DNA from: Pseudomonas resinovorans NBRC 106553 | GTDB lineage: Bacteria > Pseudomonadota > Gammaproteobacteria > Pseudomonadales > Pseudomonadaceae | Direction: 5' to 3' | Assembly (NCBI RefSeq): GCF_000412695.1 | Contig: NC_021499.1 | Span: forward strand, 1,488,001 to 1,552,000 | Length of the DNA: 64,000 nt | In this document: in pieces, positions 34,884-62,588 of the stretch | Numbering within the stretch: position 1 is the first letter of the stretch | How the letters are laid out: each line of letters starts with the position of its first letter | Made by a program: the position numbers and the translations under genes | Notes under the pieces: generated by a model | What the model was told of the DNA's origin: nothing | Database searches by the model: none | What the model saw: only the letters and a program-made list of their open reading frames with translations

Positions 34884-34970
34884 GTAGGTTGGGCAGAGGT
34901 ACGAAGCCCAACGATCGGGGGCCCGCTGCGCGCGCCATGTTGGGCTTCGCTGCGCTCTGCACCAACCTAC
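34884..34970. repeat. Palindromic repeat, GTAGGTTGG variant
   Basis: GTAGGTTGGGCAGAGG...CGAAGCCCAACG and TGGGCTTCGCTGCGCTCTGC...CAACCTAC arms, abutting the stop codon of mgdD. Confidence 0.75.
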
Positions 34971-35536
34971 TAGAGCAACGCTTCCAACGACACCGGCTGG
35001 CCACCGAACTCCTCCATGGCATCCAGCATGGCCGCCTGGAAGTACTCCAGGGACGGCCGGTCGCAGAGGATGTGGAAGAACGGCCGCTCGCCGCTGCCGG
35101 CGTTGATCACGATGACGTTGATCCGCGCCGCCGAGGTCTGCGCCACCGCGCCCACCGGGAAGGCCTCGGGCCGCAGGTCCACCCCGCAGACCTTGGCCAT
35201 CACCTCGGCCACATGGCGCCCAGAGAGCTGCAGCCAGGCATGGCTGTCCTGGCGCGGCAGCAGGTAGTTGCCCAGTTCGCCCAGCTGCCAGCCGGCTTCC
35301 TCGGCGGCGATACGTTCGCCTCGGTCGGCCAGGCTGCCCAGCAACAGGTACTCGGTCTGCGACAGGCGCGCCACCAGGCCGCCGTCGGCCTGGGCCAGCG
35401 CCCGGTTGGGCGCCTCCGGCAGCTGGTAGCCGCGCCCGCTGAGGAAGGCGGCGGCGTCGATGCCACGGAAGCCCACCCGTGGCAGGTCGGTGAGGTCGAT
35501 GAGCGCGCAGCGCTCGATGGGGTTCAGGCTGGTCAT
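34970..35536 (-). CDS. mgdD: N-methylglutamate dehydrogenase subunit D (SoxG-like)
   Basis: A 188-residue SoxG/gamma-type subunit, the last gene of a purU-folD-mgdABCD operon. Its fold is related to the folate-binding GcvT domain, and it completes a four-subunit oxidase/dehydrogenase. It could equally be labelled soxG (sarcosine oxidase gamma). The mgd reading is preferred because gmaS and mgsABC lie 2-7 kb away and glyA/sdaB, usual sox neighbours, are absent. Gap to mgdC is 3 bp. Confidence 0.75.
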   Translation of the reverse strand: MTSLNPIERCALIDLTDLPRVGFRGIDAAAFLSGRGYQLPEAPNRALAQADGGLVARLSQTEYLLLGSLADRGERIAAEEAGWQLGELGNYLLPRQDSHAWLQLSGRHVAEVMAKVCGVDLRPEAFPVGAVAQTSAARINVIVINAGSGERPFFHILCDRPSLEYFQAAMLDAMEEFGGQPVSLEALL

Positions 35537-35539
35537 GGC

Positions 35540-38437
35540 TCAGAGCTCCTGGCGCTGGTTGTCGGGATCGAAGAAGGGCAGTTGCACCACCGTGGCCTGC
35601 ACCACCTGGCCGCCCTCGACGCGGATGGGGATGACCATGCCGGGTTCGGCCTGGTCGGCGCCGGCATAGGCCAGGCCGATTATCTGGCCGAGAGTGGTCG
35701 AGTACTCGCAGGAGGTGACGTTGCCGCTGATGTCCGGCCCCTTCAGTACCAGGTGGCCTTCCAGCGGTTGCGGGCTGCCCTTGGGCAGGGTGAAGCCCAC
35801 CAGCTTGCGCTTGAGCGGCTGCGCTTCGAGGATCTCGATCGAGCGCTTGCCGACGAAGAAGGCCTTCTTGCGGCCGATGGCCCATTCCATGTCGATCTCA
35901 CCCGGATGGGTCATGCCGTCGGTGTCCTGGCTGATGATCACGTGGCCCTTCTCCAGGCGCAGCAGGCGCTGGGTCTCGACGCCGAACGGGCGGATGCCGA
36001 ACTCGGTGCCGGCGGCCATCAGCGCGTCCCACAGCTTGCCGCCATGGCGCGCCGGAACGTGGATCTCGTAGCCCAGCTCACCGACGAAGCCCACCCGCAT
36101 CAGCCGCGCCGGGATACCGGCCACCGTGCCGGTGCGCACAGCGAGGTAGGGGAAGCCCTCGGCGGACAGGTCGACGTCGTCGCAGAGCTTTTCCAGCACC
36201 TGGCGCGACAGCGGCCCGGCCAGGTTCACGGCGGCCAGGGCGGCGGTGACGTTGGTGATGTCCACGTTCAGGCGCCACTGGGCGTTCCACTTGAGCATCT
36301 GCTGGTAGATGCGGTCGACGCCGCTGGTGGTGGCGGTGACGTAGAAGTGGTTGTCGGCCAGGCGCGCGCAGACGCCGTCGTCGATCACCACGCCCTGTTC
36401 GTTGGTCATCAGCGCGTAGCGGGTGCGTGCCACCGGCTGCTTCTTGAAGGGCAAGGTGTAGATGCGCTCCAGCAGTTCGGCGGCATCCGGGCCACGCACG
36501 TCGAGGCCGCCCAGGGTGGAGACGTCGATCAGGCCGACCTTCTCGCGCACATGGCGGGCTTCTTCCTGCATGCAGCGCTCGCGTTCCTCGGGCTTGCCGT
36601 AATAGGCCGGGCGCTGCCAGATGCCGGCGGGCATCAGCTTGGCTCCGGCGGCCACATGGCGGCTGTGCATGGGCGTCTGCCGGTAGGGGTCGAAGGCGCG
36701 GCCGGCGACATGGGCCAGCTTCTCCGCCTCGAAGGGCGGGCGCGCGGTGGTCACGCCGGTTTCGCTGATGCTGCGGCGGGTGGCCTGGGCCACCAGGCGG
36801 GCGGTGGGCAGCGCCGAATGGCGGCCCTGGGACGGGCCCATGCCGACGGTGGAGAAGCGCTTGACCAACTGCACGTCGCGGTAGCCGATGCGGGTGGCGT
36901 TGACGATGTCGCGCACTTGCAGGTCCTCGTCGAAGTCGACGAAATCCTTGCCCTTGGGGTGGGGGAAGATCGGCCAGTCGAAGTTGACCCGCGCCTCGCC
37001 GGCGAAGGCCGCCTCGCCGATGCCCGCGTCCAGGCCGAGGGCCACGCAGGCGCCGGCGGCGACACGGGCGCCGTCCAGCAGCACGTTGTCCAGGTTGTGC
37101 CGGCCGTTCACCGAGCCGGCAATGGCAAGGTGCTGCGGCAGGCCGCTGATGGCGAACTCGGCGCGCTGCTCGTCGTAGGCCAGCTTGCCTCCGGCCTGGC
37201 ACAGCAGCTGGTACACCGGCATGTAGCCGGCGGACATGCACAGCAGGTCGCAGGCAAGCCGAAGGCCACTCTCGGAGACCTGGCCCTGGGCGGTGATGCG
37301 GCGGATATCCACCCCGCTGACATGGCGCATGCCTTTCTCGTGCAGGGCTTCATAGACGGTGCTGCCGAGGTGGCAGGGGATGCCCTGCTTTTCCACGGCG
37401 ATTTTGAGGGTGGCATCGGACGGCTGCTGGCGCATGTCCACCAGGGCCGCGACTTGAACGCCTTGCTCGGCGAGGTCGAGGGCGGCCAGGTAGCCGTCGT
37501 CGTTGCCGGTGAGCACGACGGCGCGCTTGCCCGGCTTCACCGCGTAGAGCTTCATCAGCCGCTGGGCGGCGCTGGCCAGCATGATGCCGGGCAGGTCGTT
37601 GTTGCGGAACACCACCGGCTGGTCGAAGGCGCCGGCGCTGACGATGCACTGCCGGGCGCGCACCTTGTACATGCGCCGGCCCTGGATCACCGGCAGGTAG
37701 TTGTCGGTGAACCAGGCGTTGCAGGTGGCGTCCTTCAGTATCTGGATATTGGCGTGGCCTTCCACGGCGGCCACCAGCTCGCGGCGCAGCAGTTCGGCGC
37801 GGCGACCTTCCACATCGAAGCGGGCGTAGGTCAGCGAGCCGCCGAGCACCGGCTGTTGTTCCACCAGCAGCACCTTGGCGCCGGCGTTGGCGGCGGTCAG
37901 GGCGGCGGAGAGGCCGGCGGGACCGGCGCCGATGATGGCGACATCGACGAACAGGTAGGCCTTGTCGTAGTACTGCGGCTTGAAGCCGAGGTCGAGTACG
38001 CCCAGGCCGGCCTTCTTGCGAATCAGCGGCTCCCATACCTTCCACATGCCCTTGGGCTTGTAGAAGGAGCGGTAGTAGAAGCCCACCGGCATGAACTTGG
38101 AAAACTTGCCCAGGTAGGCGTCGCGGTCGTTGTCCAGCGAGCCGTTGAAGTTCTGCCCGGTCACCTGGATGCCGGCGCGGATCGCCTGGGCGTCGGCCAG
38201 CACGTTGGGCTCGTCGGGCAGCTGCACCAGGGTGTTGGCGTCCTGCCCGGCCATGGTCAGTGGGCCGCGCGGGCGGTGGTACTTGAAGGAGCGCGAGAGC
38301 AGCCAGCGGCCGTTGGCGAGCAGGGCGCTGGCGATGCTGTCGCCGGCAAAGCCCTGGTAGTCGGTACCCTCGAAGCTGAAGCGGAGCGGCTGGTCGCGGT
38401 CGATCAGCAGCCCCATGGGGGCGGGGAGGCGGCTCAT
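35540..38437 (-). CDS. mgdC: N-methylglutamate dehydrogenase subunit C (SoxA-like)
   Basis: A 965-residue SoxA/alpha-type subunit. An N-terminal 2Fe-2S-fold-like region (about 10-100) precedes an NAD-binding Rossmann domain ([20 protein letters not shown], near residues 150-185). The C-terminal third is a GcvT-type folate domain (about 560-960) that would capture the methyl carbon as methylene-tetrahydrofolate. Its ATG at 38437 overlaps the mgdB stop (ATGA). In the N-methylglutamate pathway this complex regenerates glutamate and passes the one-carbon unit to folate. Confidence 0.82.
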   Translation of the reverse strand: MSRLPAPMGLLIDRDQPLRFSFEGTDYQGFAGDSIASALLANGRWLLSRSFKYHRPRGPLTMAGQDANTLVQLPDEPNVLADAQAIRAGIQVTGQNFNGSLDNDRDAYLGKFSKFMPVGFYYRSFYKPKGMWKVWEPLIRKKAGLGVLDLGFKPQYYDKAYLFVDVAIIGAGPAGLSAALTAANAGAKVLLVEQQPVLGGSLTYARFDVEGRRAELLRRELVAAVEGHANIQILKDATCNAWFTDNYLPVIQGRRMYKVRARQCIVSAGAFDQPVVFRNNDLPGIMLASAAQRLMKLYAVKPGKRAVVLTGNDDGYLAALDLAEQGVQVAALVDMRQQPSDATLKIAVEKQGIPCHLGSTVYEALHEKGMRHVSGVDIRRITAQGQVSESGLRLACDLLCMSAGYMPVYQLLCQAGGKLAYDEQRAEFAISGLPQHLAIAGSVNGRHNLDNVLLDGARVAAGACVALGLDAGIGEAAFAGEARVNFDWPIFPHPKGKDFVDFDEDLQVRDIVNATRIGYRDVQLVKRFSTVGMGPSQGRHSALPTARLVAQATRRSISETGVTTARPPFEAEKLAHVAGRAFDPYRQTPMHSRHVAAGAKLMPAGIWQRPAYYGKPEERERCMQEEARHVREKVGLIDVSTLGGLDVRGPDAAELLERIYTLPFKKQPVARTRYALMTNEQGVVIDDGVCARLADNHFYVTATTSGVDRIYQQMLKWNAQWRLNVDITNVTAALAAVNLAGPLSRQVLEKLCDDVDLSAEGFPYLAVRTGTVAGIPARLMRVGFVGELGYEIHVPARHGGKLWDALMAAGTEFGIRPFGVETQRLLRLEKGHVIISQDTDGMTHPGEIDMEWAIGRKKAFFVGKRSIEILEAQPLKRKLVGFTLPKGSPQPLEGHLVLKGPDISGNVTSCEYSTTLGQIIGLAYAGADQAEPGMVIPIRVEGGQVVQATVVQLPFFDPDNQRQEL

Positions 38438-38736
38438 CCGGCGATCTCCTGGGCGTGCGGGGCGAACTCGACCCGCTGGCTGAACACTTCCTTCGGATCG
38501 AAGGTACGAATGATCTGGTCGGTAACCGTGTGGCGCTCGGCGAGGAACCAGTAGCTGGAGGCGTTGTGCAGCCACCACTCGCGCACCACGCCGGCGGCGT
38601 TGTCGCTGTTGAACACGTAGTCGGCCCACTCGGCGTCGCTGCAGGTGGCCGGGTCGGGCATCACCTTGAATTCGCCGCCGTAGGTGAATTCGCTGATGTT
38701 GCGGGGGCCGTTGAGCGGACAGTTCATGATCTTCAT
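38434..38736 (-). CDS. mgdB: N-methylglutamate dehydrogenase subunit B (SoxD-like)
   Basis: A 100-residue delta-type subunit starting MKIMNCPLNGPRNISEF. In sarcosine oxidase the delta subunit binds zinc through CPxC near residue 6 and a later His/Cys pair (family knowledge). Here CPxC is CPLN and the later region reads WLHNASSYWF, so the second and fourth ligands are missing. This supports MgdB rather than SoxD. ATG 38736 has AAGGGGA; 11 bp after mgdA. Confidence 0.8.
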   Translation of the reverse strand: MKIMNCPLNGPRNISEFTYGGEFKVMPDPATCSDAEWADYVFNSDNAAGVVREWWLHNASSYWFLAERHTVTDQIIRTFDPKEVFSQRVEFAPHAQEIAG

Positions 38737-38747
38737 GGTGGTTCCCC

Positions 38748-39989
38748 TTAGTGGCTCGCCGCCGTGGCGCCCATCTCGTTGACCTGCTGGAAGGTGCTGA
38801 AGCGGTCGAGGGCGAAGGGCTTGATCAGCTCCGGCACCTTGCCGCCGCTGGCCACCAGCTCGGCCATGGTCTTGCCGCAGATGGGCGTGGACTTGAAGCC
38901 CCAGGTGCCCCAGCCGGCGTCCAGGTAATAGTTCTGCACCGGCGACAGGCCCATGATCGGGCTGTAGTCCGGGGTCATGTCGGTGATGCCCGCCCACTGG
39001 CGCATCAGCTTGGCGTTGGCCATGAAGGGGAACATCTCGATGGCGTGGGCCAGCAGGCTTTCCTTCAGGTCCAGGGTGGAGCGGGTGTTGTACAGCGGGT
39101 AGGGGTCGGAGCCGCCGCCGAAGACGATCTCGCCACGACTGGTCTGCTGCACGTAGCAGTGCAGGGCCGAGGAACTCACCAGCGGGTCGAGGAAGGGCTT
39201 GAACGGCTGGGTCACCATGGCCTGCAACGGGTAGGTGTGGATCGGCGCGCGGATGCCCGCCTTGGCCAGCATCAGCGAGCTGGCGCCGGCGATGGCCTGC
39301 ACCGCGCAACCGCATTTCACCGTGCCGCGATTGGTCTTCACGGCGGTGATGCGGCCGTTCTCGATCACCAGGTCCTGCACTTCGGTGAGCTGGTGGATTT
39401 CCACCCCGCGCTTGGCCGCCTGCTTGGCGTAGCCCCAGGCCACGGCGTCGTGGCGCGCGGTGGCGCCGTCGATGTGCCAGAGGCCGGCGAGCACCGGCAG
39501 GTGGCCCGGGTCCAGGTTGAGGCTGGGCACCAGTTCGCGGATCTGCTGGCGGTCGATCATCTCGGTGCGGCCACCGAAGTGCTTGTTCACTTCGGCGCGC
39601 TGGCGGAAGGCGCGCACCGTGGCATCCGTGTGGGCCAGGGTGAGCTGGCCGCGCTCGGAATACATGATGTTGAAGTCGAATTCGTTGGAGAGGTTCTGGA
39701 ACATCTTCACCGACTCGGCGTAGAAGCGCACACCTTCGGAGGTGAGGTAGTTGGAGCGGATCACCGCCGTGTTGCGCGCGGTGTTGCCGCCGCCGAGGTA
39801 AGACTTCTCCAGCACCGCCACATTGGTGATGCCGTGGTACTTCGAGAGGTAGTAGGCGATGGCCAGGCCGTGGCCGCCGCCGCCGATGATGACCACGTCG
39901 TAGGACGGCTTGAGCTCGGTGGGCGGCGGCAGGTCCACCTCCACCGGGTACTCGGAGCTGAGGCCATATTTCAGGAGATTGAACGGCAT
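38748..39989 (-). CDS. mgdA: N-methylglutamate dehydrogenase subunit A (SoxB-like)
   Basis: A 413-residue FAD-dependent amine oxidase subunit of the DAO family. The FAD motif GGGGHG is at 36-41. It resembles SoxB, the subunit that oxidises the N-methyl group using covalent FMN and FAD. In this context the substrate is probably N-methylglutamate formed by MgsABC. It overlaps folD by 19 bp and starts the mgdABCD block. Sarcosine as substrate is not excluded. Confidence 0.82.
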
Positions 39990-40894
39990 GGCGCCTCCGG
40001 GAGCTTGGCAAGGTTGGGCTGGGCCGGGTGCTGCAGGCGCGCGGCGGCCAGGGTGTTCTTCATCAGGAAGGCGATGGTCATGGGGCCGACGCCGCCGGGC
40101 ACCGGGGTGATGGCGGCGGCGTGGGCGAGGGCGGAGTCGAAGTCCACGTCACCCACCAGTTTCGAACGGCCGTCTTCTTCGATGCGGTTGATGCCCACAT
40201 CGATGACCACGGCGCCGGGCTTGATCCACTCGGCATCCACCAGGCGCGGGCGGCCCACGGCGGCGACCACGATGTCGGCCTGGCGGCACAGATCCTTCAG
40301 GTTGGCGCTCTTTGAATGCACCACGGTGACCGTGCAGTGGGCCTTCAGCAGCAGGGCGGCCATGGGCTTGCCGACGATATTCGAGCGGCCGATCACCACC
40401 GCGTGCTTGCCGGCGAGGTCGCCGCAGGTGTCCTCAAGCAGGCGCAGGCAACCGGCGGGGGTGCAGGGGGTGAGCACCTCGCGGCCCTGGCTGAGGCCGC
40501 CGACGTTTTCGGCATGGAAACCGTCCACATCCTTCAGCGGACTCACGGCCTGGAGCACGCGGCTCTCGTCGATATGCCCCGGCAGCGGCAGCTGGACGAG
40601 GATGCCGTTGACGCTGTCATCGCCGTTGAGCGTGTGGATAAGTTGCAGCAGCTCGGCCTCGGCGGTGTCCGCCGGCAGCTTGTGCTCCAGGGAGCGAATG
40701 CCGCACTCCTCGGCGCGCAGCACCTTGTTGCGCACATAGACCTGGCTGGCCGGGTCCTGGCCCACCAGCACCACGGCCAGGCCCGGGGCGAGGCCTGCGG
40801 CTTTCATTTGCCGCACCTCGGCGCTCACCTCCGCCAGCACGCGGGCGGCGGCGGCCTTGCCGTCGATCAGCTTGATAGGGGCTTGTGCGTTCAC
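39971..40894 (-). CDS. folD: FolD methylene-THF dehydrogenase/cyclohydrolase, copy 1
   Basis: A 307-residue bifunctional enzyme that converts 5,10-methylene-THF to 10-formyl-THF. Signatures: [40 protein letters not shown] and [14 protein letters not shown]. It overlaps purU by 4 bp upstream and mgdA by 19 bp downstream. Its position, and the near-identical second copy at 57139-58050, point to a dedicated role oxidising methylamine-derived carbon rather than housekeeping. Confidence 0.92.
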
Positions 40895-41757: not shown

Positions 41758-41849
41758 GTCGGGTCCTCGATTGGGGGGCGGCAGCTCATCGCAAGGCGGG
41801 AAAATTGCATGGGTGAAACGGGATTTCGTCCCTGAAATATTTTTACTGT

Positions 41850-41868
41850 CAGGAAATTAAAATTCCTG
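41850..41868. promoter_or_regulatory. Candidate XRE-cupin operator upstream of purU
   Basis: CAGGAAATTAAAATTCCTG, with 6-bp perfect arms (CAGGAA/TTCCTG). It matches the GGAAA-N5-TTTCC pattern seen at 42878 and 47936. It is 93 bp upstream of the purU start. Confidence 0.6.
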
Positions 41869-42082: not shown

Positions 42083-42676
42083 TTACTCGTTGCCGTAGTT
42101 CATCACCGACAACAGGCGGATCGGCACCTGCAGCAGCTTCTCCGGGCCGTGGGGGATGTCGCCGTCGAAGGTCAGGCTGTCGCCGGCCTGCATGTGGTAG
42201 AGCTGGTTGCCGTGGCGGTACACCAGCTCGCCCTCCAGCAGGTGGAGGAACTCGGTGCCGGGGTGGGCGAAGGTGGGGAACTCCTCGCTGGCGTCATCCA
42301 TGCTCACCATGTAGGCCTCGAAGTTCTTCTTCGGCCCGCGCGTGTGGTTGAGCAGGTGGTAGGTGTGGCCCTTCTCGGTGCCGCGGCGGACCACTTCCAT
42401 GCCGTCGCCGGCCTTCACCAGGATGGCGTTTCCGTCGGGCTGGTCGTACTGGCTGAACAGCTTGGACATGGGCATGCCGAGCACGTCGCAGAGGCGGCTC
42501 AGGGTGTCCAGGCTGGTGGAGACCTGGGCGTTCTCGATCTTGCTGAGCATGCCCTGGCTGATCCCGGCGATACGCGCCACGTCCGCCAGCTTCAGCTCCT
42601 GCGCCTGGCGCTGGCGCTTGATCTGCATACCCAGGTACTGCTCCAGGCGGAGGCGAGGTGGGGTTTCGGTGGTCAT
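42083..42676 (-). CDS. XRE-cupin transcriptional regulator
   Basis: A 197-residue regulator. The N-terminal XRE helix-turn-helix (about residues 15-70, LADVARIAGISQGMLSKIEN) precedes a C-terminal cupin effector domain (about 110-190, FAHPGTEFLHLLEGELVYRHG...DIPHGP). Such PuuR/PauR-type proteins repress amine and polyamine genes. It is divergent from gmaS and is the best candidate for binding the GGAAACTAA-type palindromes near purU, gmaS and amtB. The ATG at 42676 is preferred; a GTG six codons upstream lacks a ribosome site. Confidence 0.88.
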   Translation of the reverse strand: MTTETPPRLRLEQYLGMQIKRQRQAQELKLADVARIAGISQGMLSKIENAQVSTSLDTLSRLCDVLGMPMSKLFSQYDQPDGNAILVKAGDGMEVVRRGTEKGHTYHLLNHTRGPKKNFEAYMVSMDDASEEFPTFAHPGTEFLHLLEGELVYRHGNQLYHMQAGDSLTFDGDIPHGPEKLLQVPIRLLSVMNYGNE

Positions 42677-42852
42677 CGGCGGCGAGTCCTGCACGGTTTC
42701 GGTTCAAGAATTATTTTTTCGCACTGGGAAAGTGCAATCCGGAATATCCGGGTTGGATCAGGCTCAGGAACTTTCCCACAGTGAAAACGATTTTCCCATA
42801 TAAACAGTAGCTCGGTGCAAAACCGAGTGCCCTCCCTCCGCGATTTCCAGAT

Positions 42853-42868
42853 TGGCAAGCTGCTTGCA
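42853..42868 (+). promoter_or_regulatory. Sigma-54 promoter of gmaS-mgsABC
   Basis: TGGCAAG-CTGC-TTGCA has the invariant -24 GG and -12 GC at exact spacing. It lies about 160 bp upstream of the gmaS ATG. It implies control by NtrC or another sigma-54 activator under nitrogen limitation. Confidence 0.75.
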
Positions 42869-43028: not shown

Positions 43029-44363
43029 ATGTTGCCAACCGAAACGCAGCGCATCATCGAACAGCACGGCATCAAGTACGTGCTGGCCCAGTTCGTCGAT
43101 ATCCATGGCGCCGCGAAAACCAAATCCGTGCCGGTGTCCGGCCTCAAGGCGGTAGCGGAGGAGGGCGCCGGGTTCGCCGGCTTCGCCATCTGCGGCATGG
43201 GCATGGAACCCCACGGCCCGGACTTCATGGCCCGTGGCGACCTCTCCACGCTGATCCCGGTGCCCTGGCAGCCGGGCTACGGCCGGGTGGTGTGCATCGG
43301 CCATGTGGAAGGCAAGCCCTGGGCCTACGACACCCGCTATGTCCTGCAACAACAGGTCCAACGCCTGACCGACAAGGGCTGGACCCTGAACACCGGCCTG
43401 GAGCCGGAATTCAGCCTGTTCCGCCGTGGCGCCGACGGCAAGCTGCAGCTGGTGGATGCCTCCGACAACCTCGACAAGCCCTGCTACGACTACAAGGGCC
43501 TGTCCCGCTCCCGCGAGTTCCTCGAGCGCCTGACCGAGGCCCTGCAGCCGGTGGGCTTCGACATCTACCAGATCGACCACGAGGACGCGAACGGCCAGTT
43601 CGAGATCAACTACACCTACAGCGACGCCATGGAATCGGCGGACCGTTTCACCTTCTTCCGCATGGCCGCCGGCGAGATCGCCAACGACATGGGCATGATC
43701 TGCTCCTTCATGCCCAAGCCCGATCCCAAGCGCGCCGGCAACGGCATGCACTTCCACCTGTCCATCGGCAGCGCCAGCAACAAGAACCTCTTCCACGACC
43801 CGAGCGACCCCAGCGGCATGGGCCTGTCGAAGCTGGCCTACCACTTCGCCGCCGGCCTGCTGGCCCACGGCCCGGCCCTGTGCGCCTTCGCCGCGCCCAC
43901 GGTGAACTCCTACAAGCGCCTGGTGGTGGGCCGCTCCCTCTCGGGGGCGACCTGGGCCCCGGCCTTCATCGCCTTCGGCGCCAACAACCGCTCGGCCATG
44001 GTCCGCGTGCCCTACGGCCGCCTGGAATTCCGCCTGCCAGACGCCGGCTGCAACCCCTACCTGGTGACCGCCGCGATCATCGCCGCCGGCCTCGACGGCA
44101 TCGACCGCCAGCTGGAACCGGACACCGTGTGCAACGAGAACCTCTACAACCTGAGCCTGGAAGAGATCGCCGCGCGCGGCATCAAGACCCTGCCCCAGTC
44201 GCTCAAGGAAGCCTGCGACGCCCTGGAAGCCGACCCGCTGTTCCACGAGGTGCTCGGCCCCGAGATCGTCGACGAATTCATCAAGCAGAAGCGCATGGAG
44301 TGGGTGGAGTACAGCCGCCACGTCTCCGACTGGGAGATCCAGCGCTACACCGAATTTTTCTGA
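43029..44363 (+). CDS. gmaS: Gamma-glutamylmethylamide synthetase (glutamine synthetase family)
   Basis: A 444-residue glutamine-synthetase-type ligase that joins methylamine to glutamate with ATP (EC 6.3.4.12). The start region [15 protein letters not shown] and the ligase core ([43 protein letters not shown]) fit GmaS and the GlnA3-like branch. It heads an operon with mgsABC, which makes methylamine the likely substrate rather than ammonia or polyamines. AGGAG lies 9 bases before the ATG. Upstream are a sigma-54 promoter and a palindromic operator. Confidence 0.9.
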
Positions 44364-45292: not shown

Positions 45293-45452
45293 GTCGACCC
45301 ATGCCTGCTGCGCGCACCGATTGCCGCGTCAGGTCCTCGCGATCCGCTCGCCGTACTACTCGTACTGTCTCGCGGATCACTCCGGGCCTTCCTTGCACTC
45401 GGCGCGCTCGCGACGGCCTGACTTCGACTCGACACTTTTTGGAGATTTCCTA

Positions 45453-46127: not shown

Positions 46128-46156
46128 TCCAGCACCGCCCCGACGAGGAATTGCAA

Positions 46157-49393: not shown

Positions 49394-49732
49394 ATGAAAC
49401 TCATCACCGCAGTGATCAAACCCTTCCGCCTGGACGACGTCCGCGAGGCGCTGACCGAGGCCGGGGTGAACGGCGTGACCGTCACCGAGGTCAAGGGCTA
49501 CGGCCGACAGAAGGGCCATTCGGAAATCTACCGGGGCGCCGAGTACGTGGTGGAGCTGCTGCCCAAGATCAAGCTGGAAGTGGTGGTGGCCGACACCCTG
49601 TGCCAGGCCGCCACCGACGCCATCCTCAAGGCGGCGTACACCGGCAAGATCGGCGACGGAAAATTGTTCGTCATGGACCTGGAAAGCGTGGTGCGCATCC
49701 GCACCGGCGAGCTGGGCGAAGACGCCATTTGA
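49394..49732 (+). CDS. glnK: PII signal-transduction protein GlnK
   Basis: A 112-residue PII protein. The T-loop GRQKGHSEIYRGAEYVVELL carries the uridylylation tyrosine near residue 51, and the IGDGKLFV region is conserved. It senses nitrogen status and gates AmtB. Coupled to amtB by an 11-bp gap. Confidence 0.94.
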   Translation: MKLITAVIKPFRLDDVREALTEAGVNGVTVTEVKGYGRQKGHSEIYRGAEYVVELLPKIKLEVVVADTLCQAATDAILKAAYTGKIGDGKLFVMDLESVVRIRTGELGEDAI

Positions 49733-53311: not shown

Positions 53312-55654
53312 TCAGGCCCGTACGCGGGACTTGTCCGGGTCATAGGCCACGGTGCCTGCGGCCACCTTGGCGCGGATGCGCTTCTGCTGGCCGTCCAGCT
53401 TGCCCACCTCCAGTTCCGTGCCCGGCTCGCAGTAGCCGATATCGAGGCGGCACAGGGCGATGTTCTTGCCCAGCACCGGCGAGCGGGTGGCGCTGGTGAT
53501 GACGCCCACCTGGGCGCGGCCGACGCGCACGCAATCGCCATGGGCGGCCGGCTCGTTGCCTTCCAGCTCCAGGCCCACCAGGCGCTGCTGCGGGTGGGCG
53601 CTGCGGCGCAGCAGGGCGTCCTTGCCGATGAAGTCGGCCTGCTTGGTCTTCAGCGGCACGCAGAAGCCGATGCCGGCCTCGAAGGGGTCGGTCTGGTCGC
53701 AGAATTCGTAGCCGGCGAAGATCAGCCCGGCCTCGATGCGCAGCATGTCGAGCGCATGTAGCCCCAGCGGCACCAGGCCCAGCGGCCGGCCCAGCTCCCA
53801 CAGGCGGTTCCACACCGCCATGGCGTCGTCGGGGTGGCACCAGATTTCAAAGCCCAGCTCGCCGGTGTAGCCGGTGCGCGAAACCATCAGCGGCGCGCCG
53901 TTGTAGTCGTCCAGGCGGCCATTGAGGAAGCGGAACCAGCCCAGCTCCTCCAGCTTGGGCTGGGTGCCCGGGGTCCAGATCATCTGCTTGAGCAGTTCGC
54001 GGGCCAGCGGCCCCTGCACGGCGATGTTGTGGATCTGCTCCGAGGCGCTCTTGATCCACACCTTCATGCCGAGCTTCTCGGCCTGCTCGCGCAGCCAGAT
54101 ACCGGCATGGTCCTCGCCGCCGATCCAGCGGAATGCGTCGGCGCCAAGGCGCAGCAGGGTGCCGTCGTCGAGCATGCCGCCGTGCTCATAGCACAGGGCC
54201 GAATACACCACCTGGCCGACGGCGAGCTTGCGCACGTCGCGGGTCAGGCAGTGGTCCAGCAGGGCCTCGGCGTCGGGGCCGAGCACCTCGAACTTGCGCA
54301 GGGCGGAGAGGTCCATCACCGCCACCTTCTCGCGGCAGCCGTGGTACTCCTCGATGGTGCCGTGGCCGTCGAACTGGGTCGGCGTCCAGAAGCCGCGGTA
54401 GTCGACGAACTGGCGGGTGAGGGCGGAGGTGCCGGGGTGGAAGCCGCTTTCGCGGGTCAGCACCGGGTCGGCGTCGGGCGTCTTGCGATTGGCCATGGCG
54501 ATACTGAAGCGCTCCTTGTCGGAATACACGCGGATATGGATGTCGGTGGGCTGCCAGCCGTTGGCCGGATCGATGTCGTCCGGGCAGGAACTGCTGGCGC
54601 AGACCAGGTCGGTCATGGCGCGCAGCAGCACGTAGTCGCCGGGGCGCGACCAGGGCTCGTCGAGGGTGAGGTGCTGGTGCGCGTCCACCCCGGTGTTGAA
54701 GAAGAAGTTGATCGCCGGCCAGCCGGGGCGGCCCTGCACGCCATGCTTCGCCACGGCGCGGCTGATGTTGTCGCTGCAGTTGGCGTGGCCGAAGTAGCCC
54801 TGGGCTTCGTAGTAGCGCGCGGTGCAGGCCAGGGCGAAGGTGTCGTGGCGGCCCACGGTGTCGCGCACCACCTCCAGCATCGGCTGCATATCACGGTCGT
54901 AGAAGCGGCTGAACAGGCCGGGGCCGGGGTAGGCGTTGCCGTTCAGGGTGCGGGTGACGGTGGGGTCGAGGTCGATCTCGCGGCCGGCATCCAGGCCCCG
55001 GCGGTCGAAGGCGACGAAGTCCGAGCACTGGCGCCCGGCCACGTCGATCACCTGGATGGTCTGGCCCGCGCTCACCACATAGTCCCGCGCGGTGCCGGGG
55101 CTGATGGTGAATTCGTCCACCAGCTCGCCCAGGGGCGCCGGCAACGGCGGGGCCAGGCTGCTGCGGGGGTTGGCGCGCTGGATCAGCAGGCGCAATTCGC
55201 TGGCGCGCAGCTGGCTGTCCACCGGTGTGGCGCCACCTGGGGCGGCTACCAGCACCAGCAGGGCCTCGGCGGCGCTGAAGCTGCGGCTGAACCCGGCCGG
55301 GGTGCCGGCGGGCCAGAGCTGCGCGGCGGCCGGCAGGTGGCGGCTATCGATGCCGCTCCGGGCGAGGCCGGCGCCGACATGGGCGGCCTCCGCGCTGCCG
55401 TCGTGCAGCAGGTGGCCGATGAAGGCGGCGCCGGGGCTCGGTTCGAGGCCGAGGGCGGACAGCGCCGGGCGGTTGCCGGCGAAGGCCAGCAGCTCGGCGG
55501 CCTGGTCGCCTTCGAGGTCGATCACCTGTAGCCGGTCACCCGGCTCCAGGGCCACCACCGTGAGGCCGCCGGGGGCGACGCGGTGGCGTTCCAGGCCCGG
55601 GCTGCGGGCGAACAGGGCCGGCTCCAGCGGCCGGGAAATCACGGGTGGTTGCAT
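53312..55654 (-). CDS. tdm: Trimethylamine N-oxide demethylase
   Basis: A 780-residue protein with the Tdm architecture: an N-terminal DUF1989-type domain (about 1-395) and a C-terminal GcvT-type folate domain (about 405-780). Cys277, Cys293 and Cys357 are spaced 16 and 64 apart, the same spacing I recall for the zinc ligands of Methylocella TDM. The enzyme splits TMAO into dimethylamine and formaldehyde, and the GcvT domain can trap formaldehyde on THF. ATG 55654 has AGGAG. It lies 117 bp after tmm, with a repeat in between. Confidence 0.92.
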   Translation of the reverse strand: MQPPVISRPLEPALFARSPGLERHRVAPGGLTVVALEPGDRLQVIDLEGDQAAELLAFAGNRPALSALGLEPSPGAAFIGHLLHDGSAEAAHVGAGLARSGIDSRHLPAAAQLWPAGTPAGFSRSFSAAEALLVLVAAPGGATPVDSQLRASELRLLIQRANPRSSLAPPLPAPLGELVDEFTISPGTARDYVVSAGQTIQVIDVAGRQCSDFVAFDRRGLDAGREIDLDPTVTRTLNGNAYPGPGLFSRFYDRDMQPMLEVVRDTVGRHDTFALACTARYYEAQGYFGHANCSDNISRAVAKHGVQGRPGWPAINFFFNTGVDAHQHLTLDEPWSRPGDYVLLRAMTDLVCASSSCPDDIDPANGWQPTDIHIRVYSDKERFSIAMANRKTPDADPVLTRESGFHPGTSALTRQFVDYRGFWTPTQFDGHGTIEEYHGCREKVAVMDLSALRKFEVLGPDAEALLDHCLTRDVRKLAVGQVVYSALCYEHGGMLDDGTLLRLGADAFRWIGGEDHAGIWLREQAEKLGMKVWIKSASEQIHNIAVQGPLARELLKQMIWTPGTQPKLEELGWFRFLNGRLDDYNGAPLMVSRTGYTGELGFEIWCHPDDAMAVWNRLWELGRPLGLVPLGLHALDMLRIEAGLIFAGYEFCDQTDPFEAGIGFCVPLKTKQADFIGKDALLRRSAHPQQRLVGLELEGNEPAAHGDCVRVGRAQVGVITSATRSPVLGKNIALCRLDIGYCEPGTELEVGKLDGQQKRIRAKVAAGTVAYDPDKSRVRA

Positions 55655-55695
55655 GCAAGGCTCCTGCAGTGACGTTGCTCCGTGGCGGTTCATCG

Positions 55696-55740: not shown

Positions 55741-55771
55741 CGTTCACGGGTTCGTCATCGTTCGTCTGAGA

Positions 55772-57142
55772 TCAACCCGTCGCCTTCATGGAAGGCTCCG
55801 GGCTATCGGCCAGGTAGGCACCCAGGGAGTCGTCGAGGGCTTGCAGCCAGGGGGTGTGGTGGGGCGTGGCCATGGTCCCGGTGATGAGCGAGCGGTGGCA
55901 CTTGTCGCGGTAGCCCATGATGTTTTCGTACTTGTCGTGCTTCCACTCCAGGAAGGTCCGGTTCACCTCGGCTATGTCGAAGCTCGGGTAGTCGGTGGCC
56001 TCGATCAGCTGGCGGATGTACTCGCCCTGGAACTCGAACATCTGCTGGGCGGTTTCCAGGGTTTCTTCCTCGCGGCGCCAGGCCAGGTCCTCGGCCTGCA
56101 TGCGCTCGAAGTCGGGCAGGGCGATGCGCCCGAGGATCACGTCGCGGGCATACCAGGCCTGGGCGTCGAACATGTTGAAGCTGTACCACTGGTCCTGCAT
56201 GCCGAGGTAGATCAGCTTCGGGTTCTGCTCCCAGAACACGCCCTTGTAGAGGTTCAGCGGCCAGAGGCGGTTGCCGGTCTTCAGCCGCAGTTCTTCCGGC
56301 AGGAAGGGGAAGTGATGCTTGTAGCCGGTGCACAGGATGATGGCGTCGATGTGCCGGCTGCTGCCGTCGGCGAAGAAGGCGGTGCTGCCCTTCACATGGG
56401 TGAGCAGGGGTTTCTCTTCCCAGTTCTCCGGCCACTTGTAGCCCATGGGCGCGCTGCGGTAGCAGCTGGTGATGGAGCGGGCGCCGTACTTGAAGCATTG
56501 CGAGCCGATGTCCTCGGCCGAGTAGCTGCCGCCGACGATGAGCACGTCCTTGCCCTTGAATTCCAGGGCGTCGCGGAAGTCGTGGGCATGCAGCACGCGC
56601 CCGGCGAAGCTCTCGAAACCCGGGAAGTAGGGCACGTTGGGGGTGGAGAAGTGGCCGCTGGCGACCACCACGTAGTCGAAGGTCTCGCTGTAGGTCAGGT
56701 CCTGCTCGTAGCTGTGGGCGGTGACTTCGAAGGTCTGGCTTTCGGCGTCGAAGGCCACCCCGCGCACGGTGGTGTTGAAGCGGATCCAGGGGCGCACGCC
56801 GGCCTTTTCCACGCGGCCCTTGATGTAGTCCCAGAGCACCTCGCGGGGCGGGTAGGACCCCATGGGGCGGCCGAAGTGCTCGTCGAAGCTGTAGTCGGCG
56901 AACTCCAGGCACTCCTTCGGCCCGTTGGACCAGAGGTAGCGGTACATGCTGCCGTGCACCGCCTCGCCGTGCTCGTCGAGACCGGTGCGCCAGGTGTAGT
57001 TCCACATGCCGCCCCAGTCGGACTGCTTCTCGAAGCAGACCAGTTCGGGGATCTCCGCGCCGCCCGCCCTGGCCGACTGGAAGGCACGCAACTGGGCGAG
57101 GCCGCAGGGGCCGGCGCCGATGATGGCGACTCGTTGTTTCAT
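55772..57142 (-). CDS. tmm: Trimethylamine monooxygenase
   Basis: A 456-residue flavin-containing monooxygenase. FAD motif [11 protein letters not shown] (from residue 7), FMO signature [11 protein letters not shown] and NADPH motif [11 protein letters not shown] are present. Length and the N-terminal [17 protein letters not shown] region fit bacterial Tmm, which oxidises trimethylamine to TMAO (and can oxidise DMS). Its ATG overlaps the folD copy 2 stop by 4 bp, and tdm follows, giving the two consecutive steps. Confidence 0.93.
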
Positions 57143-58901: not shown

Positions 58902-58936
58902 GGTTGTCGGTCTCGTGCAGGCAAGGTCGGGTGCGC

Positions 58937-60067
58937 TCAGCCCTTGGCGGTGCGCTTCTTCTTCTCGGGGTCGTCGAACGGCAGGTTGTGGGCGATGGCC
59001 TTCACGCTGAGGCTGCCGCGCACCTCCAGGGGCACGCCCTGTTCGGCGATGTCGGGCTCGACGCGGGCAATGGCCATGGAGCGATCGGTGAGGCGCGAGT
59101 ACATGGCGCAGGTGATCACGCCGACCTCGCGGCCCTCATGCCAGAGGGTGTCGCCGTTCTGCGCGGCGACCTGGCCGTCGAGCAGCACCCCGAAGATCCT
59201 GAAGCGCTCCTGGCCCTGGCGGCGGTAGTGCTCGCCGGCGCCACGGAAGTCCTGCTTGCCGGGGGACACGGTGAAGTCCAGGCCCAGTTCCCAGAGGGTG
59301 TCGCCGGCCTTCTGGTCGGCGAAGGGGTACATCTGCGAGTTGTCGTAGGGGTAGAACAGCAGGTAGCTCTCCACCCGCAGCCAGTCGAGAGCCGTGAAGG
59401 CGCAGGGGATGATGCCGAGGTCCGTGCCCTTCTCCAGGATGCCGTCCCAGATGGCCGGGGCGTCGGCGGCCTTGCAGAAGATCTCGTAGCCGCGCTCGCC
59501 GGTGTAGCCGGTGCGGGAGATCATCACCGGGCGCTCGAAGAGCTTGGTCTGCAGGTGGTGGAAGTAGGGCAGGTCGCGGATGCCGGGCACGTGCTCGGCG
59601 AGGAAGTCCACCGCCTTGGGGCCCTGCAGGGACAGGTCGTGCAGGTCGTCGTCGAACAGCACCGCCACCTGGCGGCCCTGGGCCGAGCGGATGAGCATCT
59701 CGTGGCCGATGCCCGCGCCGTGCACCACCATGAAGGCGTTGGGGCCGGTGCGGTAGACGATGCAGTCGTCGGCGAAGGTGCCGTCTTCATCCAGCATGCA
59801 GGCGTACACCGACTTGCCCGGGTAGAGCTTGGCGATGTCGCGGGTAGTGGCGTACTGCAGCAGGCTTTCGGCGTGGGGGCCGACGTAGTGCACCTTCTTC
59901 AGGCCCGACACATCCATCAGGCCGGCGCGGGTGCGGATGGCCTCGTGGTGGTCGGCGAGATCGCTGGCATAGGTCCAGGCGGTGCCCATGCCGTTCCAGT
60001 CTTCCAGGTTCGAGCCGAGTGCCAGGTGGCGTTCGCGGAGCGCACTGATGCGCCATGAGTTGGCCAT
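58937..60067 (-). CDS. GcvT-like folate-dependent aminomethyltransferase
   Basis: A 376-residue single GcvT-fold protein (LMDVSGLKKVHYVGPHAE, RTGYTGERGYEIFC, GLDFTVSPGKQDFRG). It is not part of a glycine-cleavage operon. Between the dimethylamine monooxygenase genes and purU-folD, its likely job is loading the released one-carbon unit onto THF. ATG 60067 has AGAGGA at 8 bases. DMSP demethylase (DmdA) is a relative, so substrate should not be assumed from fold. Confidence 0.85.
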   Translation of the reverse strand: MANSWRISALRERHLALGSNLEDWNGMGTAWTYASDLADHHEAIRTRAGLMDVSGLKKVHYVGPHAESLLQYATTRDIAKLYPGKSVYACMLDEDGTFADDCIVYRTGPNAFMVVHGAGIGHEMLIRSAQGRQVAVLFDDDLHDLSLQGPKAVDFLAEHVPGIRDLPYFHHLQTKLFERPVMISRTGYTGERGYEIFCKAADAPAIWDGILEKGTDLGIIPCAFTALDWLRVESYLLFYPYDNSQMYPFADQKAGDTLWELGLDFTVSPGKQDFRGAGEHYRRQGQERFRIFGVLLDGQVAAQNGDTLWHEGREVGVITCAMYSRLTDRSMAIARVEPDIAEQGVPLEVRGSLSVKAIAHNLPFDDPEKKKRTAKG

Positions 60068-60099
60068 GGGAATGTCCTCTTGTTGTCGGTGGGGTGATG

Positions 60100-61119
60100 T
60101 CAGGCTTCGGGGTCGAAGCGGCGCAGCCAGTCGACCAGCGTCTGGCGGTAGCGGGTGATGCCCTTGTAGTCGGCGATGGGCGCGGGCAGGTCGCGCATCA
60201 CGCGGTGCATGCGCCGCGCCCAGGCCGGGTTGCTGACCAGCTCGTCGAGGCTGATCAGGTAGGTGCGGATGCCGAACAGCAGGGCGTTGGAGCGCGGCAG
60301 GCGGACCATCAGCTGCAACTCGACGCGCAGGTGCACCAGGCGGCCGACGTTGTCCGGGGTGACCTTGCCGCGGTCGTTGCCCCACTCGTGGTAGGTCTCG
60401 GGGGAGGTGTCCAGGCGCGGGTTGATGGTCAGGGTCCAGTTCAGCCGACGCACCGGCGCGCCCACCTGGATGTTCAGCAGGTACTTCAGGGCGCGGTCGA
60501 ACACCCCGATCTGGTGGGCCATGGGCACCGGAGAGTGCCACTGCTTGAAGCTCATGCCGGCGTCGAAGCGCAGGGACCAGTCGGCCGGGCAGGTGACCAT
60601 GCCGGCGTCCATGAACAGGTCGCCGTCACGCTGGTCGAGCACCGCGAAGTCGCCCTGCATCTGCCGGGTGATGTACTCCAGCGGCTCGCAGGGCAGGGTC
60701 GCCGGGTCGCCGAAGGTGAAGCGCTGGTCGATGCCCAGGGCGAGGTTGTGCCAGTGCCAGGCGTCGCCCTCGCGGTCCAGGCGGAAGTGCTGTGGATAAT
60801 CCCGCGACAGGTTCTCCATCAGCAGCGCCAGGGTGTCCCAGGCGGCCGGGGCCATGTGCGGCATCACCAGGCAGCGCTCGGGGTCGCGCTCCAGCACGCG
60901 GGCGCGCTCGGCCATCTCGGACACGTAGTGCTCGTCCACGTCGAACAGGTGCTCGAACACCGAGCCGGGGTCGCGGGACACCGCCGGTTCCAGGTTCACC
61001 GAGTACATGTACTGGTCTTCCGGGAAGGGGAAGGGGAAGCGAGCGATGGCCTCCGGGCTGTTGCGGAAGCTGAAGTCGTCCCGGTAGGTCTCCAGCGGCT
61101 TGAAGGTCAGGGTGGTCAT
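60100..61119 (-). CDS. Dimethylamine monooxygenase haem subunit (DUF3445)
   Basis: A 339-residue DUF3445 protein, the family of haem-dependent oxidative N-demethylases. Conserved-looking stretches are FPFPFPEDQYMYSVNLEP, DWSLRFDAGMSF, WTLTINPRLDTSPETYHEWG and RVELQLMVRLPRS. It is probably the catalytic subunit that N-demethylates dimethylamine to methylamine. Reductase and DmmA genes precede it by 15 bp and the GcvT-like gene follows. Subunit letter left open because naming differs between reports. Confidence 0.85.
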   Translation of the reverse strand: MTTLTFKPLETYRDDFSFRNSPEAIARFPFPFPEDQYMYSVNLEPAVSRDPGSVFEHLFDVDEHYVSEMAERARVLERDPERCLVMPHMAPAAWDTLALLMENLSRDYPQHFRLDREGDAWHWHNLALGIDQRFTFGDPATLPCEPLEYITRQMQGDFAVLDQRDGDLFMDAGMVTCPADWSLRFDAGMSFKQWHSPVPMAHQIGVFDRALKYLLNIQVGAPVRRLNWTLTINPRLDTSPETYHEWGNDRGKVTPDNVGRLVHLRVELQLMVRLPRSNALLFGIRTYLISLDELVSNPAWARRMHRVMRDLPAPIADYKGITRYRQTLVDWLRRFDPEA

Positions 61120-61134
61120 GGGGTGCTCTCCGGG

Positions 61135-62064
61135 TCAGATGTCCAGCAGGATCGGGCTGCCGCAGCCGCGCGAGACGCAGGGCATCAGGCTGTTGCTGCG
61201 CTCGGCGGCGGCGAGGAAGTGGTCGCGGTGCTCCACGTCACCCTTCAGGTAGGGCGTCTGGCACTGGCCACAGACCCCGCCCCGGCACAGGTTGGGGATT
61301 TCCACCCCGTTGGCCTCCAGGGCCTCCAGCAGGCTTTGGTCGGCGCCCACTTCCAGCTGCCGGCCGCTGCGCGCCAGCTCGACGCGGAAGGGCTGGCCGG
61401 GCTCCGGTGCGGCGAAGGCCTCCCAGTGCACGCGGCGGTCGCTCCAGCCCTGGGCGGCGGCCTGCTCCTTGAGGTCCAGCAGCAGGGACTGCGGGCCGCA
61501 GGCGTAGACGTGGCTGCCCAGGGGGCGCCCGCGCAGCAGGGCGGCCGGGTCGAGGCGGCGCTGGCCGGCGGGGTATTCGGCAAGGCGCGGGCCCAGCAGC
61601 TGGCGCAGCTCGGCCAGGTAGGCGTCGCTGACCCCGGCGCGGTAGGCGTAGTGCAGTTCGAAGTCGGCGCCCTGGCGCAGTAGCTCCCGACTATGGGCGA
61701 GGAAGGGGGTGATGCCGATGCCGGCGGCCACCAGCAGGTGCTTGCGCGCCTCGCTGTGCAGCGGGAACAGGTTGGCCGGCGCCGACAGGCGCAGCACGTC
61801 GCCGGCCCTGAGCTGCTGGTGCAGGTAGCGCGAGCCGCCACGGGAGGCCTCCTGCTGGCGCACGGCGATGCGGTACTGGCGGGTGTCGGCGGGGTCCCCT
61901 AGCAGCGAGTAGGCGTTGCGCCGTCCATTGGGCAGGTGCAGCTGCACGTGACTGCCGGCGGAGAAGCCGGGCAGGGCGCCGCCGAGGGCTTCCAGGCGGT
62001 ACTCGCGTATCACCGGGGTGAGTTCGCGGATGGCGGCGACGCGGACATCGAGCAGGGCGCTCAT
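61135..62064 (-). CDS. Flavin/[2Fe-2S] reductase of dimethylamine monooxygenase
   Basis: A 309-residue phthalate-dioxygenase-reductase (VanB) type protein. A flavin domain with RRNAYS (48-53), an NAD domain with AAGIGITPF and a C-terminal plant-type [2Fe-2S] domain with Cys260, Cys265, Cys268 and Cys296 pass electrons from NAD(P)H to the haem subunit. Its ATG overlaps the dmmA stop (ATGA). Context, not sequence alone, assigns it to Dmm. Confidence 0.88.
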   Translation of the reverse strand: MSALLDVRVAAIRELTPVIREYRLEALGGALPGFSAGSHVQLHLPNGRRNAYSLLGDPADTRQYRIAVRQQEASRGGSRYLHQQLRAGDVLRLSAPANLFPLHSEARKHLLVAAGIGITPFLAHSRELLRQGADFELHYAYRAGVSDAYLAELRQLLGPRLAEYPAGQRRLDPAALLRGRPLGSHVYACGPQSLLLDLKEQAAAQGWSDRRVHWEAFAAPEPGQPFRVELARSGRQLEVGADQSLLEALEANGVEIPNLCRGGVCGQCQTPYLKGDVEHRDHFLAAAERSNSLMPCVSRGCGSPILLDI

Positions 62065-62588
62065 GGCTGGATCTCCTGATAGGGCTGGTCGGCATCGGCG
62101 CAGACCCCGAGGTAGGCCCCCAGGCGCTGGGAGAAGTGGCGGCGCACCTCCAGCACCACGCCGCAGTGGGCGCAGGTCAGGTGCGCAGAGGCGCCCGCCG
62201 GCTGGCAATTGGCGCAGTGCACGCAGAACACCCGGCGGCTGCCGGAGGCGTCGCAGTGCAGGAGGATCTCGTCGGCCTGCAGGCCGGCCTGGCGGGCCAG
62301 GGCGTGCAGTGGCCAGATGAAGGCTTCGTCGCCGTGCAATTCCAGGCGCAGGCCGGCGGGGGCGGCGTCCAGCCTGGCCCGCAGGGCGGCTTGCAGCGCG
62401 GCCTGGTGGGGGAAGTCCGGCAGGGCCAGATGGCTGACCGGCACGGCGCCGAGTTGCGCGGCCAGGGTGCCGCGCAGGGCGGCTTCCGTGCCCTGGGTCA
62501 CCAGCAGGTGTTCGGGAGCCTCCGGGCAGGGCTGGCCACTGGGGTAACGCGGAACGCTGAAGGGATGGTCGGTGGGGGCGCTGCTCAT
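62061..62588 (-). CDS. dmmA: Dimethylamine monooxygenase subunit DmmA
   Basis: A 175-residue protein matching the DmmA family in size and C-terminal Cys-rich layout (HCDASGSRRVFCVHCANCQ, LTCAHCG, HFSQRLGAYLGVC). The cysteines form a rubredoxin-like or zinc-ribbon pattern. First gene of the operon dmmA - reductase - DUF3445 - GcvT - purU - folD - tmm - tdm. A perfect 16-bp palindrome lies 33 bp upstream of its start. Confidence 0.83.
   Translation of the reverse strand: MSSAPTDHPFSVPRYPSGQPCPEAPEHLLVTQGTEAALRGTLAAQLGAVPVSHLALPDFPHQAALQAALRARLDAAPAGLRLELHGDEAFIWPLHALARQAGLQADEILLHCDASGSRRVFCVHCANCQPAGASAHLTCAHCGVVLEVRRHFSQRLGAYLGVCADADQPYQEIQP

Follow-up and report, generated by a model that had tools for sequence, protein, structure and literature searches.

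We studied a 64 kb stretch of DNA from Pseudomonas resinovorans NBRC 106553 (the window) which holds, at positions 34970-62588, a cluster of genes for the use of methylated amines. The best explanation of this cluster is, with good probability, a nitrogen-scavenging system that would carry the nitrogen of trimethylamine (TMA) to glutamate under the joint control of NtrC/sigma54 and a regulator of the XRE-cupin family. The pathway itself is of a known kind; the new part is the predicted control scheme in the Pseudomonadaceae. Gene content, family scores, synteny and motif statistics were established directly. All the genes named in a preliminary description of this DNA were found within the above positions, each in an open frame, by a combined search of open reading frames, Pfam, NCBIfam and PDB. 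Further genes, left unnamed there or covered only by the word "regulators", were an SMR-family transporter, a chemoreceptor with PAS and short MCP domains, the XRE-cupin regulator and a LuxR-PAS regulator a little beyond these positions. The host genome (G000) had 6.48 Mb in two contigs; its P-II match at G000:C1:1537394-1537711 corresponds to window positions 49394-49711. The cluster is not a chance assembly, because four of its proteins scored above curated cut-offs in the profile searches proposed in that description, i.e., NF058570 (Tmm), NF053776 (Tdm), TIGR03105 (GmaS) and NF041259 (DmmA-like), and similar gene orders recurred in named Pseudomonas genomes.

The predicted control centred on the region between gmaS and the divergent XRE-cupin gene. 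The regulator gene and the putative regulatory elements were as follows:

42083..42694, minus strand: XRE-cupin regulator, candidate repressor (ATG start possibly at 42676), with HTH_3 and Cupin_2 domains; orthologues in 56 of 298 genomes
42721..42735, plus strand: NtrC-type site GCAC-N7-GTGC before gmaS, by motif match
42852..42868, plus strand: sigma54-like element before gmaS, by consensus score
42878..42892, no strand: predicted operator of the XRE-cupin, GGAAACTAAGTTTCC, at the start site of gmaS, by matrix and spacing
41852..41866, no strand: predicted operator before purU2-folD2-mgdABCD, 22.1 bits
41913-41927, no strand: second predicted operator before purU2-folD2-mgdABCD, 17.9 bits
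47909..47925, plus strand: sigma54-like element before amt1-glnK-SMR, by consensus score
47936..47950, no strand: imperfect operator-like box before amt1, 21.1 bits
52027..52043, minus strand: sigma54-like element before amt2, by consensus score

Only three sigma54-like sites scoring at least 14 of 15.5 were found on both strands of the window, upstream of gmaS, amt1 and amt2, and those of gmaS and amt1 were each followed at a short distance by a palindrome close to GGAAANTAANTTTCC. The gmaS promoter presented the NtrC/sigma54 pattern of a -24/-12 element with an upstream GCAC-N7-GTGC; at the amt2 promoter of the window the sigma54-like element was present and the upstream site absent. Among 298 Pseudomonadaceae genomes, an even draw across the family, the XRE-cupin gene occurred in 56, including all 37 with Tdm, the trimethylamine N-oxide (TMAO) demethylase, and gmaS adjoined it divergently in every one of the 56. 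Their gmaS promoters all reached a sigma54 score of at least 14. A box positioned at +26/27 from this element scored at least 10 bits in 54 of the 56 and at least 13 bits in 47, and at other offsets (n=2,072) one position reached 10 bits and none 13. An exact GCAC-N7-GTGC was located within 200 bases upstream in 39 of the 56 promoters (0 of 56 in the reversed control). The 19 XRE-cupin genomes without Tdm still carried the sigma54 element and the box; LuxR-PAS was not found beside the XRE-cupin gene in these genomes, up to 12 kb being examined. The promoter tables exclude loci L041 and L042, repeats of genomes G001 and G016; in the survey of the 56 promoters the longer L169 takes the place of L143.

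A matrix built from seven gmaS palindromes gave nine matches of at least 8 bits in the window, all in intergenic regions of the cluster. Six of them, of 11.7-27.1 bits, were clear of noise and lay before gmaS/XRE-cupin, purU2 and amt1; three overlapping boxes before dmmA (8.5-10.1 bits) were not above noise, because the reversed-sequence control reached 10.8 bits. In 451 kb from 39 further loci, 83 of the 88 matches of at least 13 bits were upstream of XRE-cupin, gmaS or purU.

According to the available text of PMC7901475, XRE-cupins of P. aeruginosa are local repressors acting on palindromes beside their own genes. The protein studied here likewise has HTH_3 and cupin domains, and a palindromic site adjoins its gene; a box that covers the start site is in keeping with a repressor, from which we infer repression of gmaS by the XRE-cupin. 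These results suggest that nitrogen limitation and the release of a local repressor would together switch the pathway on. NtrC/sigma54 would drive the gmaS-mgsABC promoter under nitrogen limitation, and the XRE-cupin, bound to the palindrome near GGAAANTAANTTTCC, would block the gmaS start site until freed by a methylamine-derived metabolite, which may be gamma-glutamylmethylamide or N-methylglutamate; similar boxes stand before the purU2-folD2-mgd and amt1-glnK-SMR operons. Limited literature searches on gamma-glutamylmethylamide with NtrC and, among top-ranked papers, on N-methylglutamate with XRE/cupin found no description of this control in the available text.

The amt1 operon and the neighbouring amt2 gene contained the putative transporters of the cluster:

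48063..49382, plus strand: amt1, ammonium transporter, TIGR00836 at 396.7 against a cut-off of 343.3
49394..49732, plus strand: glnK (P-II), PF00543
49835..50176, plus strand: SMR-family transporter of an uncharacterised subfamily, PF00893
50536..51915, minus strand: amt2, divergent Amt, PF00909; TIGR00836 at 195.3, below the cut-off of 343.3

The SMR protein reached the cut-off of none of the 21 listed NCBIfam SMR models, among them NF008512 (Gdx/SugE; 73 against 126). Most of 48 aligned sequences carried a signature near E-x-x-Y-A plus P-R/K-T-x-G-F-T/S-R/K, with Trp for Tyr in two. Of the 298 genomes, 33 had a strong orthologue, and 31 of these 33 also had Tdm; strong means an E value of 1e-35 or less, a limit set after viewing the list, and at 1e-22 the number was 46. 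In some species the gene was placed in the amt1-glnK operon and in several others behind dmmD in the same direction, and the link to amine use is the stronger because of this second position. The subfamily is tied to Tdm as an association among related genomes, which suggests small methylated amines as its cargo. An alternative given slightly less than an even chance is ordinary export of guanidinium or quaternary ammonium by a protein that travels with the cluster by chance: its closest solved chains are SMR proteins of the Gdx type, its central Glu aligns with that of the Gdx chain, and Gdx is known for guanidinium export in the available text of PMC9800807, but the missed cut-offs, the company of Tdm and the two recurrent operon positions argue against it. 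A pairing of SMR proteins with trimethylamine was not described in the available text of the top-ranked papers of a limited literature search. In G155, one of the two genomes with a strong SMR orthologue and no Tdm, matches to iclR and to mgdD-like, dmmD-like and LuxR-PAS-like genes surrounded the SMR gene, those to dmmD and mgdD being partial or lone (L122, G155:C1:1410001-1428000, 5686-11859), and this locus looks like a remnant of the cluster.

amt2 matched the Pfam family PF00909 and missed the NCBIfam "amt" subfamily TIGR00836. Both channel histidines looked conserved in the alignment (row L011 disregarded), and amt2 appeared as a divergent Amt subfamily with an AYPE-containing tail common to the aligned rows. 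The gene was present in 24 of the 298 genomes, 21 of these with Tdm. We rejected the notion of amt2 as a transporter of methylated amines only, since the remaining three genomes had no Tdm match and no other cluster gene within 18 kb, and several other genera were among the best 120 of 1,770 homologues. Names among these best 120 included Thiomicrorhabdus, Amphritea, Marinomonas and Zavarzinia.

A number of points weigh against the control scheme. Sites for sigma54 and NtrC were scored with a general consensus and general weights; the +26/27 spacing was chosen after earlier promoter data had been seen, and the training boxes partly overlap the 56 scored promoters. The reversed-sequence control of the matrix gave five matches of at least 8 bits (best 10.8), and the boxes were weak (below 13 bits) in nine of the 56 gmaS promoters, mostly beside diverged XRE-cupins of 74-78% identity to that of the window and in two cases (L155, L156) beside XRE-cupins of 85%. 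Among promoters with a sigma54 score of at least 13.5, duplicates and short regions being left out, an exact NtrC-type site was present in 0 of 21 for amt1 (18 of 21 with at most one mismatch, control 0) and in 2 of 33 for amt2 (5 of 33 with at most one mismatch, control 1). Four Paraburkholderia/Burkholderia gmaS promoters next to an XRE-cupin of 54-55% identity had neither the sigma54 element nor the box, and for this reason the switch is claimed for the Pseudomonadaceae only. The strict box GGAAANNAANTTTCC occurred at only two more places in the genome, G000:C1:2106723-2106737 and 4624336-4624350. Finally, the sampled genomes are related, so their counts are not independent and Fisher p values overstate significance. 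Our confidence in the proposed explanation was moderated because of the post hoc spacing, the dmmA boxes removed by the control and the threshold-dependent count of LuxR-PAS genes (see below).

It is rather unlikely that a regulator other than the XRE-cupin binds the conserved palindrome, or that this belongs to the transcript leader or to initiation. The boxes are linked to the XRE-cupin by neighbourhood only and the diverged Burkholderiales proteins lack the palindrome; against this, the boxes stand together before gmaS, XRE-cupin and purU (the 83 of 88 matches above), as expected for a local autoregulated repressor, and the proteins of PMC7901475, in its available text, bind palindromes beside their own genes.

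The putative enzymes encoded in the cluster, from the TMA end of the pathway to glutamate and including the folate genes, were the following:

55772..57142, minus strand: tmm, trimethylamine monooxygenase, NF058570 at 837 against a cut-off of 675; PDB 6hns, 6kbw
53312..55693, minus strand: tdm, TMAO demethylase, NF053776 at 1155.3 against a cut-off of 1100; PDB 9q59
60100..61119, minus strand: haem-dependent dimethylamine demethylase (HODM, DUF3445), PF11927; PDB 5lte at 751.8 bits
61135..62064, minus strand: reductase subunit, PF00111 and PF22290
62061..62588, minus strand: DmmA-like subunit, NF041259 at 109.8 against a cut-off of 60
58937..60067, minus strand: dmmD-like GcvT protein, PF01571 and PF08669
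58047..58901, minus strand: purU1, PF00551
57139..58050, minus strand: folD1, Pfam match
43029..44363, plus strand: gmaS, TIGR03105 at 672.4 against a cut-off of 469.6; PDB 9qur
44393..45292, plus strand: mgsA (amidotransferase), PF13522/PF13537
about 45321-46127, plus strand: mgsB (GXGXG; start uncertain), PF01493
about 46151-47479, plus strand: mgsC (glutamate-synthase-like), PF01645
38748..39989, minus strand: mgdA (SoxB-like), PF01266; TIGR01373 at 452.5, below the cut-off of 529.45
38434..38736, minus strand: mgdB (small SoxD-like), PF04267 with E 4e-30
35540..38434, minus strand: mgdC (SoxA-like, with a GcvT domain; start approximate), TIGR01372 at 896, below the cut-off of 1164
34970..35536, minus strand: mgdD (SoxG/GcvT-like subunit), PF01571 and PF04268
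40891..41757, minus strand: purU2, TIGR00655 at 334 against a cut-off of 286
39971..40894, minus strand: folD2, profile matches (Pfam, NCBIfam)

The minus-strand string dmmA, reductase, hodm, dmmD, purU1, folD1, tmm, tdm and mcp showed overlaps or gaps of less than 80 bases. On profile scores and solved relatives, no step on the way from TMA to formate and ammonia-level nitrogen lacked a candidate gene, as the preliminary description claimed. Tmm passed the NCBIfam equivalog cut-off and one of its solved relatives, 6kbw, is named trimethylamine monooxygenase, so that it is a candidate for the oxygenation of TMA to TMAO. Tdm presented the architecture DUF1989 plus GcvT (PF09347, PF01571, PF08669), its closest PDB chain 9q59 being named TMAO demethylase, and would convert TMAO to dimethylamine (DMA). 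DMA would be taken to monomethylamine (MMA) by the haem demethylase (HODM alpha subunit) with its reductase and the DmmA-like subunit, the genes of all three lying together. GmaS, a type III glutamine-synthetase-like equivalog whose best solved match was 9qur (674.6 bits; runner-up 321.9), named glutamate--methylamine ligase, would act with MgsABC to turn MMA into N-methylglutamate, from which MgdABCD would give back glutamate. MgsABC were recognised as three split glutamate-synthase-like subunits adjoining gmaS with their domains in order, and MgdABCD as four SoxBDAG-like (sarcosine-oxidase-like) subunits.

Two assignments in this predicted flux count against the overall reading: Mgs was identified by its Pfam domains and the order of its genes, a curated Mgs model being absent among the NCBIfam matches, and the Mgd subunits reached sarcosine oxidase models only below cut-off, their substrate being assigned from context. 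The three subunits scored against these models missed all of them (TIGR01372 and TIGR01373 as listed; TIGR01375 at 42.7 against 143.95), which fits N-methylglutamate dehydrogenase without proving it.

The cluster might instead mainly serve intracellular DMA and MMA released from osmolytes, quaternary ammonium surfactants or drugs, TMA not being the main substrate and Tmm acting as a general amine/sulfide oxygenase. The cluster proteins scanned included no transporter for TMA or TMAO, and none of them had a domain of a TMAO ABC transporter, in agreement with the preliminary description, which listed TmoXWVP as missing. The gmaS part occurred without Tdm in 19 of the 56 XRE-cupin genomes, and in Aminobacter, as reported in the available text of PMC9800807, metformin-derived DMA feeds a DMA and methylamine pathway. 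We regard this alternative as quite improbable: Tmm and Tdm occurred together in 54 of 55 complete loci, adjacent in nearly all, and both exceeded equivalog cut-offs, which points to TMA/TMAO as a real entry. Least probable of all is that MgdABCD is a sarcosine or homarine demethylase, a role that the SoxBDAG-like subunits and the mention of Mgd in homarine catabolism (PMC13390433, available text) would favour, but with which neither the scores below all three sarcosine oxidase cut-offs nor a regulatory region common to mgd and gmaS-mgsABC agrees.

Each demethylation block also contained folate chemistry: Tdm, DmmD and MgdC all carried a GcvT domain, and the dmm-tmm-tdm and mgd strings had one FolD-PurU pair each. 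The GcvT-type domains would catch formaldehyde-level carbon on tetrahydrofolate, and the two FolD-PurU pairs, one per demethylation operon, would turn it into formate. The GcvT-like protein described earlier as stand-alone is indeed present: it sits in the dmm operon, was found in 46 of the 55 complete Tdm loci, and by domain and neighbours fits the DmmD of PMC5520151, whose available text proposes that DmmD hands formaldehyde to tetrahydrofolate. As to the formate dehydrogenase thought to be missing, the organism has one, a single match over cut-off at G000:C1:453373-455400, outside the cluster.

Two further genes encode PAS domains:

62702..63421, plus strand: LuxR-PAS regulator, divergent from dmmA, PF00196 and PF08447
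52264..53250, minus strand: PAS plus short MCP chemoreceptor, PF08447 and PF00015

LuxR-PAS was counted in 23 of the 298 genomes, all with Tdm, at an E value of 1e-35 or less; 14 of the 37 Tdm genomes miss this limit, so the count depends on the threshold, and neighbouring LuxR-PAS genes of 41-50% identity were seen in clusters of such genomes. Orthologues of the MCP occurred in 21 of the 298 genomes, all with Tdm (E 1e-147 or less, a limit set after viewing the list; 21 of the 44 genomes reaching 1e-60). The divergent LuxR-PAS regulator probably controls the dmm-purU1-folD1-tmm-tdm-mcp operon. A shared operator between luxrpas and dmmA was sought, and the palindromes differed between species, with none in several loci. 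A near-identical PAS sensor common to both proteins was considered and rejected (BLASTP E 0.27). The chemoreceptor belongs to a short-chemoreceptor family with two relatives of 53-55% identity in the same genome (G000:C1:2884781-2885743 and 5489577-5490485), and CheW and CheA-type genes were located at window positions 132-2442, about 50 kb from its gene.

Contrary to the view that a compact full set is unusual in a pseudomonad, Tdm exceeded its cut-off in 7 of 18 genomes of the same genus and was present at E 1e-200 or less in 37 of the 298 Pseudomonadaceae genomes (36 of these over cut-off), often in a similar gene order; PMC13390433, in its available text, already reports complete pathways in several Gammaproteobacteria, one strain being named Pseudomonas. 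The named Tdm loci were the best 80 of 589 confirmed, of which 55 had both 10-kb flanks complete and formed the basis of the locus counts. These 55 contained tmm in 54, luxrpas in 50, dmmD in 46, hodm in 45, smr in 32, amt2 in 29, mcp in 29, amt1-like genes in 24, mgsC in 24 and gmaS in 21. All of tmm, tdm, hodm, reductase, dmmA, gmaS and mgsC lay within about 22 kb in 19 of them, and in the remaining loci gmaS and mgs were beyond the flank or elsewhere. The cluster is an ordinary trait of Pseudomonas, though its distribution is patchy.

In the rest of the window, positions 28888-34855 hold a separate group adjoining the cluster, with GntR and IclR regulators, an aldehyde dehydrogenase, an alpha/beta hydrolase and an AA_synth protein. 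A REP-like element with the core CCCATCCTACG occurred in 12 exact copies between 7558 and 52161, several as inverted pairs (0.09 expected in shuffles); the gaps of the cluster hold five of the 12, together with four copies of a longer 35-base form. Neither Rfam families at gathering score nor tRNA genes were found in the window.

A more tentative proposal, possible but doubtful as a whole, joins these parts into a logic of the Pseudomonadaceae's own: NtrC/sigma54 with a start-site XRE-cupin plug that senses a methylamine-derived metabolite, an SMR safety valve that would export small methylated ammonium ions, and a cytosolic PAS chemoreceptor that would couple the pathway to swimming. The full candidate route from TMA to ammonia changes from a speciality of marine bacteria and methylotrophs into a trait that recurs in Pseudomonas and bears on how nitrogen is turned over in soil, water and wastewater. 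The control scheme predicts, in a sharply testable way, which regulator, box and nitrogen switch govern the pathway, and one subfamily stands out among the SMR transporters, which are known as exporters of drugs and guanidinium: the genes that accompany it suggest small methylated amines.

Compared with known systems, the cluster HODM is a near relative of the haem-dependent oxidative N-demethylase of PDB 5lte (751.8 bits over residues 3-339), and no difference was noted; that chain is from Pseudomonas mendocina. The SMR protein shares its family with the exporters Gdx (SugE) and EmrE, but differs in its scores below the listed NCBIfam cut-offs and in its own signature. The same reaction set as here was described for Ruegeria pomeroyi DSS-3 in the available text of PMC5520151 (tmm, tdm, dmmDABC, gmaS, mgsABC, mgdABCD), where the GcvT-domain protein DmmD is likewise encoded with the DMA monooxygenase and amtB appears in a figure legend; unlike that system, the Pseudomonas cluster had no TmoXWVP seen and contains two folD-purU pairs, the SMR, PAS-MCP and LuxR-PAS genes and other regulators. 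The TmaR/TmoR control of PMC13390433, as given in its available text, resembles ours in its local regulator near mgd and in its effector, proposed to be a compound formed further along the catabolism of MMA. TmaR belongs to the AraC-type activators, whereas the Pseudomonas candidate is an XRE-cupin repressor combined with sigma54/NtrC; no AraC-type HTH was among the cluster proteins scanned, and the genome elsewhere was not searched for a TmaR homologue. The closest parallel to the regulator itself is with the XRE-cupin repressors of P. aeruginosa (PMC7901475, available text), which share HTH and cupin domains, adjoining targets and palindromic sites; the term methylamine is absent from the main text of that source, and the pairing with sigma54/NtrC is apparently specific to the methylamine cluster.

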